DNA of 64,000 nt from Hyphomicrobium sp. 12-62-95 (lineage in GTDB: Bacteria; Pseudomonadota; Alphaproteobacteria; Rhizobiales; Hyphomicrobiaceae). The position numbers and the translations under genes are program-made. Shown in pieces: positions 45,062-49,896 of the stretch; positions within the stretch are counted from its first letter, which is position 1; the number at the start of each line of letters is the position of its first letter. The notes beneath the pieces were generated by a model. It was not told the DNA's origin and searched no databases. It was given only the letters and a program-made list of their open reading frames with translations. Where the stretch lies: contig NCCZ01000002.1 of NCBI GenBank assembly GCA_002279935.1, positions 186,001 through 250,000 of the forward strand, given 5' to 3'.

Positions 45062-45583
45062 TTACCGCCGCTTGGCCGGGAGAGGATGGAGCTGCGGAAT
45101 GATGGCGGCGGCCAATTGGAGGTGTTCGGAAATGACGCCGCGCAGTTTGCCTATCTCCCCGGCAACTGCCCGCAACTTGGGCGCGGGCCCCTGTACGAGG
45201 ATCACTTCGAGGGTCTTTTCGCCCGTCAGGTGAACGTGCAGGGAGGAGATGACTTCATCGATGTAGCGGCGTTGGAGATCGGCTAGCCGTTGCTGCAAAC
45301 CGCCGACCGTGTGGTCGTAAAACAGGGTGATGGTGCCGACCATAACATCCTCGCCCTTGTCGCTCTTCGTTTCGACGAGCGCGCGGTGGACGAAGTCGGC
45401 AACTGCTTGAGATCGGCTCTGGAATCCGCGCTCTGTCACGACATGGTCGAGGTCGGTGAGCAGGTCTTCCGAGAGTGAGATGGTGACGCGGCTGACGGGG
45501 CCGCGCTTGACGGGATCGGTGGCCGGCGCAGACTGGCGGACTTTCGCGGATGAGCGCTTCGACCGCGGGGTTTTCGCCACCAT
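45062..45583 (-). CDS. nikR: NikR-like ribbon-helix-helix regulator with altered metal site
   Basis: The 173-residue product has the NikR plan: a ribbon-helix-helix DNA-binding domain (SRVTISLSEDLLTDLDHVV, residues 31-49, with the DNA-contact positions R32, T34 and S36) and a C-terminal ACT-like ligand domain (TITLFYDHTVGGL ... SSLHVHLTGEKTLEVI). NikR binds nickel through H76, H87, H89 and C95 (E. coli numbering). Here H116 and H118 match H87 and H89, but R105 replaces H76 and T124 replaces C95. A 30-residue basic extension precedes the first domain. ATG 45583 follows an AGGAAG site. It is divergent from the amidohydrolase operon and 46 bases from its operator. Nickel sensing is therefore doubtful. 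Confidence 0.85.
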   Translation of the reverse strand: MVAKTPRSKRSSAKVRQSAPATDPVKRGPVSRVTISLSEDLLTDLDHVVTERGFQSRSQAVADFVHRALVETKSDKGEDVMVGTITLFYDHTVGGLQQRLADLQRRYIDEVISSLHVHLTGEKTLEVILVQGPAPKLRAVAGEIGKLRGVISEHLQLAAAIIPQLHPLPAKRR

Positions 45584-45628: not shown

Positions 45629-45656
45629 GTATGACGATTTCCTGCAATCGTCATAC
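45629..45656. promoter_or_regulatory. NikR-type operator
   Basis: GTATGA (45629-45634) and TCATAC (45651-45656) are separated by exactly 16 bases, the spacing and sequence of the classical NikR site. The match extends further: GTATGACGATT and AATCGTCATAC form a perfect 11-bp inverted repeat around TCCTGC. It lies between the divergent nikR-like gene (46 bases away) and the amidohydrolase start (25 bases away). Confidence 0.88.
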
Positions 45657-45680: not shown

Positions 45681-46448
45681 ATGCTTTGGGCTGACAAGGC
45701 CTGGCCTGAAATTCCAGGCGTTCTGCGGGCCGTCAACGGCGCCGCCATTCTGCCGGTGGGGGCAACCGAACAGCACGGGCCGCAACTGGGCTGCGGGATG
45801 GATTTCTTGCTTGCGGACAAGCTGTGCCGCAAGGTCTCGGAGGAGACCGGCGTGCCGATGATGCCGACGATGCCGTATGGCTGCTCGATCGGACATAGCA
45901 AGCGCTGGCCGGGGACGATCGCGCTCGAACCGGCTGTGATGACAGCGCTAGTCACGCAGATCGGGACTTGGGCTTATCATTCCGGCGTGCGGCGGCTGTT
46001 CATCGTCAACACGCATGTGACGAACTTCGCCCCGCTTCGGTGCGCGCTGGAAAATCTGCGCGCGACCTTCGACGATCTGATGGTGTGCGTGATCAATACC
46101 GGGCAGATGACGCCGCGGGTGAAGGCCGTCCATTTTGCCGATGGCGACGACTGGCATGCGAACGATGCTGAGACTTCACTCATGCTTGCGGTCGCGCCGG
46201 AGATCGTGCGCGAAGCGGAGATCGCTGGCGCGGACGATCCGGACCGGACGGAGGGGCTGGTATTTTCGCATCCTGTGAACCGGACGAGCAAGAATGGCGT
46301 CACGGGGTATCCGAGCCGCGCCACGAAGACAAAAGGCGAAGACCTGTTCGCGATGATGGTGGAGGACCTGTCGAACATGGTCCGGCGCGGCATGATTGAG
46401 ACGCCGCCGCTCGACGCCTCTTATCACACGCCGTTTTCCAGCACCTGA
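45681..46448 (+). CDS. Creatininase-family amidohydrolase
   Basis: A 255-residue protein of the creatininase/formamidase fold. Candidate metal ligands are the glutamate and histidine in [12 protein letters not shown], the aspartate in CGMDFLLAD, a histidine in VNTHVTN and the glutamate in WHANDAETS. The family usually has NGHGGN where this has NTHVTN, so its active site is slightly altered. The start is ATG 45681, with the strong site GGAGGGAGG just upstream; longer in-frame starts lie over the operator. It is the first gene of an operon with glutamine synthetase III, 26 bases away. The substrate, possibly an amide or cyclic amide, is unknown. Confidence 0.87.
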
Positions 46449-46474: not shown

Positions 46475-47836
46475 ATGGCTCACGATCCCAAACTCGATGC
46501 GCTCATGACGGATTTGAAGGCGCGCGGCGTCAAATATTGCATGGGTGCTTACGTGGATATTCACGGCTGCCAGAAGGGCAAAGTGGTGCCGATCGATCAC
46601 CTGCATCACATGGCGGCGGGGTCGGAGCTTTATACTGGCTATGCCGTCGACGGCATGGGGCAAGCGCCCAACGACGACGAGTTCGCGTCGATCCCGGATT
46701 TCGACGCGCTCGTGCAGTTGCCGTGGGAGCCGAAGGTCGCGTGGATGCCGGCGGACATTCATTTCAAGGGGCAGCCCTATCCGCTGTCGACGCGTGTGGC
46801 TTTGAAAAATGTTCAGGCGGAGGCAGCGAAGCTGGGGCTTGGTTTCAATCTCGGGATTGAGTGCGAGATCTTCGTGTTGAAAAAGATGCCGGATGGGTCG
46901 CTGGCGATCCCGAACCCGGACGATAAGCTGATCAAGCCTTGCTACGATATTCGCGGCTTCATGGGGAACTTCACCTGGCTCGACCGGATGGCGACGACGA
47001 TCAACGATCTGGGGTGGGATCTCTATTCCTTCGATCACGAGGATGCGAACGGGCAGTATGAATTTGATTTCAACTATGCCGACGCGCTGACGACGTGCGA
47101 CCGGTTCACGTTTTTCCGCATGATGGCGAAGCAATATGCCGAGGACCTGGGACTGCTCGCGACGCTGATGCCGAAGCCGTACGCCAACCGGACGGGGAAC
47201 GGGGCGCATTTCAATATGTCGCTGTACGACCTGGAGACCAAAGCGAACCTCTTCAAGTGCAAGCCGGAGGATGATCCGCGTGGGCTTGGTCTGACGCCGA
47301 TGGGGTATCATTTCATTGGCGGCGTTCTACGGCATGGGCGGGCGCTGTGCGCGACCTTTGCGCCGACGGTCAATAGCTACAAGCGTCTGGTTCGGCGTGG
47401 TTCGATGGCGACGTTCTCATGGGCGCCGGTATTCAACTCGTACGGCTCGAACAACCGCACGAACTCGATCCGCGTGCCGATGGGCGGCGGACGTTGCGAG
47501 AGCCGCAACGCGGATGGCGCGGTCAATCCGTATCTGGCGGCGACGCTGGCGCTAGCTGCCGGACTAGAAGGCGTGCGCGAGAAGATCGATCCGGGGATGC
47601 CCAACGACGACAATCTGTATGAGATCAGCGAAGAGGCGCGGCGCGCGCGGGGCATCGATTTCCTGCCGCAGAATTTAGACGAAGCTGTTGATGCGTTCGA
47701 AGCCGATCCGCTGGTCGAGAAGACTCTCGGGACAGCGTTGCGGGACGAGTTCGTGCGCTACAAGCGCGAAGAGTGGCGCGAGTATCACCTCTCGATCTCA
47801 CCCTGGGAGATCGAGAGGTACAGTCACCTGTTCTAA
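46475..47836 (+). CDS. glnT: Glutamine synthetase type III
   Basis: A 453-residue ligase of the type III group known from rhizobia (GlnT). It joins ammonia, or possibly an amine, to glutamate using ATP. Blocks visible are [19 protein letters not shown] near 18-36, the glutamate metal site IECEIFVL near 128, [20 protein letters not shown] near 187-206, [12 protein letters not shown] near 245 and [15 protein letters not shown] near 321. It lacks the adenylylation-type NLYDLP loop of type I enzymes. Translation likely couples with the amidohydrolase gene. Because type III enzymes overlap with gamma-glutamylmethylamide synthetases in sequence, the amine acceptor is uncertain. Confidence 0.9.
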
Positions 47837-47848
47837 GTTGCGTTCGTT

Positions 47849-49612
47849 CTACTCGCTGCCGGCGGCGGCAACGGAGACGAAGCTGTCGCGGGCGTGCTTG
47901 ACGGCGGCCGGGTTGCGGTCGGTCGTGTAGTAGTCGCCCATCACTAGAATATCCATGTCGGTGCGGTGGAAGCAGGAGATGGCCTGCTCGGGCGAGTTTA
48001 CGACCGGTTCTTGCCGGTTGAAGCTCGTGTTCAGGATCACGGGGATGCCGGTGATCTTGGCGTATTCCTCGATGACGCCGTAGTAGCGCGGGTTGGCCGA
48101 ACGCTCGATGGTCTGGATGCGGCCGGTGCCGTCGACGTGGGCTGCAGCGGGGATCAGCGCGAGCTTATCGGGGTGGATGCGCGGGGCCAGCGTCATGAAG
48201 GGGTCGGGCTGCGTTACCTCGAAGAATTCTTTCGACCGCTCCAAGAGCACGACGGGGGCGAAGGGACGGAACGCCTCGCGGTGCTTGATCTTGGCGTTAA
48301 TGAGATCCTTGATCTTGTTGTCGCGGGCGTCGGAGAGAATCGAGCGATTGCCCAGCGCGCGCGGGCCCATCTCGGCGCGTCCCTGGAACCAGCCGACGAT
48401 CTTTTGTTCGCTCAGGTCTTTGGCAACCTTCTTCAAGAGGTCGGCTTCCTCGAACTTCTGATAGGTGAGGCCGGCCTTATCGAGCGCGGCCTTGATCTCC
48501 GCGTCGGTGAAGCCCTTGCCGTAATAGGCGTGCGTCATCTCGAAGGTGCGCGGGTTGCCGAGCGTCTGGTGCCAGTGCCAGAGCGCGGAGCCGAGCGGTG
48601 CGCCGGTGTCGGAGGCGCAGGGGGGTACCCAGACGCGTTCGAACTTGGTGTCGCGCAGGATGCGGGCGTTGGCGACACAATTGAGGCCGACGCCGCCGGA
48701 GATGACGAGATTGCGCGAGGACTGGCGCTTTTCCATATCGCGGACGATGTGGAGGATGGTCTCCTCGATCACCGTTTGCAGGGCGTGGGCCATATCGCGG
48801 TGGTGATCGGTCAACGGGTCCTTGCGCGAACGCGGGGGCCCAAAGGTTTCGTAGAACTTCCACTTGAAGGGGCGGACGAGGCCATGCGTGTCGAAGGAAA
48901 TGTAATCGCGGTTGATACGGAACTGACCGTCGGGGCGCAATTCGATGAGGTCGCGCATTTTGTCGACGTAGGTCGGCCCACCGCAGGCGGCGAGCGCCAT
49001 GACGGTGCCTTCCTCGAAGACCTTGAAGCCGAGGTACTCGGTCACGCAGGTGTAGAGCATGCCGAGGCTGTCGAAGAATTGGCTGTGCCAGACGCGTTCG
49101 AGCTTGGTGCCCTGGCCGATGTAGCCGGACGTGGACGTGTCATCGCCGTAGCCGTCCATGACGAGGACGGCGGCTTCTTCGAAGGGCGAGACGTTGAAGA
49201 CGGCGGCATGCGCATTGTGATGCGAGACCTGCACGATCTTGGGTACCTTGCGGTAGCCGTAGCGCTTGCCGAGACCGAGCCAGAGGCGGAGCGGCAGGTT
49301 GACGATGGCGGAGGCCTGGACGCGGTGGGCGCCGGGGCGGAGGAGGTTGAGGCTTCCGGGGAGCTTGCCCGTGACGTTGTTGTAGAAGGTGGGGCGGAGA
49401 CGGTCCATTTCCCACGGTGTGGTCAGGACGTCGATGTCCTCGAAGTTCAAACCGCTGTCGGCGAACAGGGCGTCGAGGCATTGGATGGGGAATTCGAGGG
49501 TATGCTTCTGGCGGTTGAAGCGCTCTTCTTCCAGGATGTAGGCGGGCGCGCCCTCCTGGAGCAGCGCGAGGCCGGTGTCATGCGACTTGGTAACGATGCC
49601 TAGAATGTTCAC
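47849..49612 (-). CDS. NodU/CmcH-type carbamoyltransferase
   Basis: A 587-residue enzyme that transfers a carbamoyl group from carbamoyl phosphate through carbamoyl-adenylate. The N-terminal half has the ASKHA-fold start NILGIVTKSHDTGLALLQEG and HHNAHAA, with the metal histidines. Later come DGYGDD and SGGVGLNCVANARI; then the C-terminal half has QGRAEMGPRALGNRSIL and NTSFNRQEPVV. I start at GTG 49612, since family proteins begin with MNILGI; ATG 49648 is possible. The gene is convergent with glnT, 12 bases apart. In this family the acceptor is usually a sugar or antibiotic hydroxyl and here is unknown. Confidence 0.92.
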   Translation of the reverse strand: MNILGIVTKSHDTGLALLQEGAPAYILEEERFNRQKHTLEFPIQCLDALFADSGLNFEDIDVLTTPWEMDRLRPTFYNNVTGKLPGSLNLLRPGAHRVQASAIVNLPLRLWLGLGKRYGYRKVPKIVQVSHHNAHAAVFNVSPFEEAAVLVMDGYGDDTSTSGYIGQGTKLERVWHSQFFDSLGMLYTCVTEYLGFKVFEEGTVMALAACGGPTYVDKMRDLIELRPDGQFRINRDYISFDTHGLVRPFKWKFYETFGPPRSRKDPLTDHHRDMAHALQTVIEETILHIVRDMEKRQSSRNLVISGGVGLNCVANARILRDTKFERVWVPPCASDTGAPLGSALWHWHQTLGNPRTFEMTHAYYGKGFTDAEIKAALDKAGLTYQKFEEADLLKKVAKDLSEQKIVGWFQGRAEMGPRALGNRSILSDARDNKIKDLINAKIKHREAFRPFAPVVLLERSKEFFEVTQPDPFMTLAPRIHPDKLALIPAAAHVDGTGRIQTIERSANPRYYGVIEEYAKITGIPVILNTSFNRQEPVVNSPEQAISCFHRTDMDILVMGDYYTTDRNPAAVKHARDSFVSVAAAGSE

Positions 49613-49896
49613 GGCGATCCCGTCCGTTGCCCGTTTGATAATCGACATGCGATACCGGGTTGCCGGCCTTTGAACCAGACCGGACGCGCGGATGTCGCAG
49701 TGTGACGGTTGGGGAGACGTCACAGTCCATTGTTGAATTCCAGCCCGGGGCGTATCTGTCCACCCGAGAGCGGCGATCACGTTAATTGCGTTCGAGTTGC
49801 AGGTGGCAATGAAGCTCGGTGTCGCGGCTGACGCGAACTGGGCGAACGTGTAGCGTTGCGACTATTCGTTAAGATGTCCGGCGGGGACCATCCGGC

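Follow-up and report, generated by a model that had tools for sequence, protein, structure and literature searches.

The described proteins closest to the one reported here are the nickel regulators NikR of E. coli, H. pylori and P. horikoshii, in which a ribbon-helix-helix (RHH) N-terminus is joined to a NikR_C domain with a four-ligand nickel site (His76, His87, His89 and Cys95 in E. coli numbering). Glu30 of E. coli NikR additionally binds potassium (PMC7055735). The genes that accompany our regulator and its relatives recall a second system, of RNA and not of protein, namely the Guanidine-I and Guanidine-II riboswitches (ykkC and mini-ykkC), which likewise control a urea-carboxylase-type importer, UAAP1 and UAAP2, a carboxylase and an allophanate hydrolase. 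A 2025 review names riboswitches as the only known guanidine receptors besides transporters and enzymes, and allows that transcription factors binding guanidine could still be discovered (PMC12186494).

The window, 64,000 nucleotides of a contig of Hyphomicrobium sp. 12-62-95 (NCCZ01000002.1, positions 186,001 to 250,000), encodes a NikR homologue divergent from genes for a creatininase-family amidohydrolase (CREAT) and a type III glutamine synthetase-like enzyme (GS3) (Table 1). The regulator shares with the NikRs the RHH and NikR_C architecture and ribbon residues resembling R3 and T5. It differs from them in the loss of ligands 76 and 95, in a Gln for Glu30, in an extra C-terminal A..P tail and in its surroundings, which hold no nickel genes, the neighbours throughout its clade being importers and hydrolases of nitrogen compounds. 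The protein is probably a local, operon-specific repressor of the NikR family that serves the scavenging of guanidino-type nitrogen and not nickel control. At the level of sequence the loss of the nickel and potassium site residues, the operator with its conservation, and the linkage of the genes are established; as to the ligand, the neighbourhoods point tentatively to guanidine or a substituted guanidine.

Table 1. Features of the divergent locus, in window coordinates
Feature	Position	Strand	Remarks
NikR-family ribbon-helix-helix/ACT-like regulator	45062..45583	-	Nickel ligands H76 and C95 and potassium ligand Glu30 absent; A160 and P163 in a C-terminal extension
Candidate operator, perfect inverted repeat GTATGACGATT-N6-AATCGTCATAC (GTATGA-N16-TCATAC)	45629..45656	.	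Half-sites as in E. coli nik; conserved at orthologous loci
Creatininase-family metal-dependent amidohydrolase (CREAT)	45681..46448	+	Transcribed away from the regulator; ATG 45681 preceded by GGAGG
Type III glutamine synthetase-like enzyme (GS3)	46475..47836	+	Follows CREAT after 26 bases in the putative operon, as its second gene

The regulator and its clade

The initial annotation had given the protein a NikR architecture with two of the four nickel ligands, and both statements hold. Its 173 residues comprise an RHH N-terminus and a Pfam NikR_C domain (E=1e-23), and the solved NikRs of P. horikoshii, H. pylori and E. coli match it (best E=4e-25, phmmer) ungapped across the metal-site region. 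In the alignment the E. coli ligand columns 76, 87, 89 and 95 fall on R105, H116, H118 and T124, as the earlier hand count had placed them together with the ribbon residues R32, T34 and S36, giving R-H-H-T where a nickel site has H-H-H-C. At both substituted positions the alignments were searched for a conserved His and Cys, and neither was found; the Glu30 position of the potassium site is occupied by Gln59. An alignment artefact was ruled out by the lack of gaps at these columns in several alignments. The R-H-H-T columns, with both substitutions, are kept in Hyphomicrobium orthologues beside the same operon (81-94% identity), which makes a sequencing slip an unlikely source; they also occur in relatives about 52-65% identical from two other families of the order, while another genus of Hyphomicrobium's family has A-H-H-T. 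A genome-wide search found no other NikR_C protein in the 4.39-Mb genome. The score against NCBIfam PRK04460 is above the cut-off, so that automatic labelling would make the protein a nickel regulator, likely an annotation error. A structure prediction built from four close sequences was poor (pLDDT 46.5).

Homologue searches covering relatives, the order, the class, the phylum and plasmids gave a clade of 33 proteins, the canonical four-ligand site being absent throughout. Scores against the clade profile are two-peaked, with members at 185-240 bits and canonical NikRs at no more than 106 bits. A tree of 130 sequences, 21 of them clade members, supports the clade at 99/99 and joins it to P. 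horikoshii NikR instead of to the alphaproteobacterial NikRs. This suggests that the subfamily is old and allied to archaeal NikR, although we are less sure of the deeper placement, which rests on few columns and includes some long branches. Recent decay of a local NikR is ruled out by the tree and by the lack of a second NikR_C protein in the genome. Comparison with 71 canonical NikRs reveals Gln at the Glu30 position in 31 of the 33 clade proteins (94%), against Glu in all 71. The only ligand invariant across the clade is H116 (E. coli His87). Position 89 is H, F, V or Q, the second histidine (H118) being retained in the CREAT/GS3 branch and gone in the branches that adjoin guanidine carboxylase operons; position 95 is T, S, I or V; and position 76 is so variable (R, A, S, V, Y, Q, L or G) that it provides no clear pocket residue. 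Residues that mark the clade are E110, Q131, A160 and P163.

Loss of ligands proves little by itself. Other NikR clades of the order are also without the canonical set (L/H/Q-S-P-S/A, R-Q-P-V and H-Q-H-C), and those with S-P-S/S-P-A and R-Q-P-V nevertheless adjoin nickel/cobalt ECF-transporter-like genes (NikK/CbiM/CbiO-like, judged by eye and not by profile). The deduction that a protein without the ligands cannot serve nickel was therefore rejected as sufficient, and the argument for a non-nickel role rests on the neighbourhood. The earlier proposal of a repurposed regulator stands in so far as it describes a NikR-family protein with a different job, the NikR operator being kept among neighbours that concern nitrogen compounds, not nickel, across families and classes. 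It falls where it implies a recent change of a NikR, the subfamily being old, or draws on ligand loss alone.

The S-P-S/A or Q-P-V NikRs found beside NikK/CbiM/CbiO-like genes come from L082, L083, L091, L098 and the related loci L073-L098; in some of them the C-terminal tail is rich in His, a hint that the metal site has moved. In NikR homologues of a further family (f33, L067-L070) His87 is replaced by Gln (H-Q-H-C, H-Q-Y-C), an independent ligand change.

The candidate operator

The 97-base gap between the start of the regulator (45583) and the divergent start of CREAT (45681) contains the 28-base repeat GTATGACGATTTCCTGCAATCGTCATAC. Judged by its sequence this is an operator of the E. coli type, as both 9-base half-sites (18 bases) and their spacing are identical to those of the nik operator of E. 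coli MG1655, GTATGACGAATACTTAAAATCGTCATAC. The genome holds one exact match to GTATGA-N16-TCATAC, the site in the window, and none with one mismatch, while matches with two mismatches are near background (32 places in the whole genome versus 20 for a control). Orthologous loci have the half-sites GTATGACG or GTATTACG at unchanged spacing. In the first 20 clade loci 29 operator-like sites were found, at least one in each, where Markov-resampled sequence gives 1.35 on average; a site was present in 11 of a further 12 loci, hence in 31/32 overall. Several of the sphingomonad sites are weak (13/16 matches), and single sites there are less certain than the overall pattern. Three sphingomonad operons with the same gene order but no regulator have neither an operator (0/3) nor a known riboswitch. 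A LysR-type gene takes the place of the regulator upstream of the importer in two of these three (L204, L205). A promoter scan of the regulator-CREAT gap found no sigma-70-type promoter.

Gene neighbourhoods and guanidine riboswitches

CREAT is assigned by its Pfam Creatininase domain and its similarity to solved creatininases. The predicted GS3 is over the cut-off of TIGR03105 (gamma-glutamylmethylamide synthetase) and has glutamate-methylamine ligases as its nearest solved relatives, a likeness by which its substrate may be an N-methyl compound or an amine. A NodU-type carbamoyltransferase gene (47849-49642, minus strand) is convergent with GS3 and is conserved next to it in Hyphomicrobium relatives.

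Linkage of CREAT and GS3 to the regulator is seen in Hyphomicrobium, in a second genus of the family, in genomes from two further families of the order and in gammaproteobacteria. Among 397 genomes sampled from the order, close CREAT orthologues occur in 7, an RHHT/AHHT regulator in 7 and both in 6 (hypergeometric P ~1e-11, phylogeny not corrected for). The pair occurs without the regulator in one genome (G358), and one locus (L071) has the regulator and an importer without the pair within the stretch read. Most orthologous operons outside Hyphomicrobium also carry a urea-carboxylase-type ABC importer, which is absent beside the regulator in Hyphomicrobium, the window included, and in L061. 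The sphingomonad, Asticcacaulis and Acinetobacter branches have this type of importer beside the regulator, together with UAAP1, UAAP2, a 'urea' carboxylase and an allophanate hydrolase. UAAP1/2 and the 'urea' carboxylase we take to be carboxyguanidine deiminase and guanidine carboxylase, whose operons would thus adjoin the regulator in these branches. PMC12508155 mentions the guanidine carboxylase pathway by name. In a sample of the sphingomonad family the regulator is present in 13/99 genomes and UAAP1 in 16/99, all 13 lying within the 16 and the genes being adjacent (hypergeometric P=9e-14, again with no correction for phylogeny). Clade members therefore neighbour CREAT and GS3, or UAAP1/2 with carboxylase and allophanate hydrolase, or both, with the importer alone in L071. 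No nickel gene, for a transporter or an enzyme, was found near any clade member examined.

The gene set in common with guanidine riboswitches is a property of the clade as a whole. Unlike the carboxyguanidine deiminase/guanidine carboxylase operons, the window operon has CREAT and GS3 only, and the genome's carboxylase operon is a separate one on contig C45 (L168:7116-19036), under Guanidine-I and Guanidine-II riboswitches and without a NikR-type operator. With that operon under riboswitches, guanidine itself is not necessarily what the regulator of the window senses. Elsewhere the two arrangements are joined. A gammaproteobacterium (L208) has, behind a single operator and in one direction, importer, CREAT, GS3, the NikR-like regulator, UAAP1, UAAP2, a Guanidine-II riboswitch, carboxylase and allophanate hydrolase, and at L114 regulator, importer, CREAT and GS3 are followed by a Guanidine-II riboswitch with UAAP1/2. 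In A. baumannii (L128) an operator lies 34 bases ahead of a Guanidine-I riboswitch, so that here, as in L208, RNA and protein are both present. At L200:6873-11859 a Guanidine-I riboswitch is directly upstream of importer-CREAT-GS3-importer, bringing this pair too under riboswitch control, the CREAT and GS3 there being more distant (44% and 50%). Because of these arrangements CREAT-GS3 appears to belong with guanidine-linked metabolism. The importer differs in more distant CREAT/GS3 operons, and the pair may for this reason not be guanidine-specific.

Proposed mechanism and the nature of the ligand

We envisage that a NikR-like tetramer would bind the operator via R32, T34 and S36 of the ribbon; as the 28 bases lie inside the divergent gap, binding should silence both the regulator gene and the CREAT-GS3 operon. 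The ACT-like C-terminal domain would respond to a small nitrogen compound of the controlled pathway instead of Ni(II), the likeliest compound being guanidine or a substituted guanidine, which the ABC importer of most orthologous operons outside Hyphomicrobium would bring in. Ligand binding would then free the operator and switch on uptake and breakdown. Taken over all its members, the clade might supply the protein sensor that is still missing for guanidine or substituted guanidines, a possibility we put forward with reserve, in which the NikR fold and operator would be re-used to detect guanidinium instead of a metal cation, beside or instead of riboswitches, in alpha- and gammaproteobacteria. 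If this is true, the allosteric domain of a metal sensor has been switched to an organic compound with its DNA address nearly unchanged. The clade offers a concrete candidate for a guanidine-sensing transcription factor, with predicted operator and target genes. In the open-access literature, to which the search was confined, we found no description of a NikR-like regulator of guanidine or urea-carboxylase genes, or of this clade.

Hyphomicrobium is a methylotrophic genus and amino acids are common ligands of ACT domains; these points, together with the relation of GS3 to glutamate-methylamine ligases, would suit a domain that detects not a guanidino compound but something from the amine, amide or amino-acid side of the pathway (methylamine, a gamma-glutamylamide, glutamine or glutamate). 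Such a ligand seems unlikely, however, given that in the guanidine-carboxylase branches, where GS3 is missing, the fold of the regulator persists and its operator is related. Another possibility is that H116 and H118, with other residues, form an altered site for nickel, cobalt or zinc that governs the metal-dependent amidohydrolase. Sister branches whose operons are related have lost H118 and the ligands at 76 and 95, Glu30 of the potassium site is replaced by Gln, and nickel genes are absent near the clade members examined, which together make a metal sensor improbable in spite of the invariance of H116, the retention of H118 in the CREAT/GS3 branch, the metal dependence of the CREAT family and the name NikR that automatic rules assign through PRK04460. 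The two ligand-poor NikR clades beside nickel/cobalt-transporter-like genes also speak for an altered site, as they suggest that the canonical ligands may be dispensable for nickel work.

Many RHH proteins work without a ligand, and the operator is placed as autoregulation would have it, so the regulator could be a constant repressor that senses nothing, its own abundance or a partner protein determining how strongly it acts. We consider this very doubtful, since the C-terminal domain is strongly conserved and E110, Q131, A160 and P163 would be needless for ligand-free autoregulation. A guanidino ligand is the reading we prefer. The locus also draws attention to an uncharacterised pathway of creatininase-like hydrolase and glutamylamide synthetase that is linked to guanidine genes.

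Plasmids carry further arrangements of these genes. On pSA1 of Novosphingobium resinovorum (L132:8899-13019) one guanidine operon has its importer genes between two copies of the NikR-like regulator. On a plasmid of Acinetobacter sp. NCu2D-2 (L131:12667-14555) genes for a 2OG-Fe(II) oxygenase and a hypothetical protein adjoin the NikR-like and guanidine genes, a pair that by annotation only resembles the methylguanidine demethylation pair of PMC12508155.
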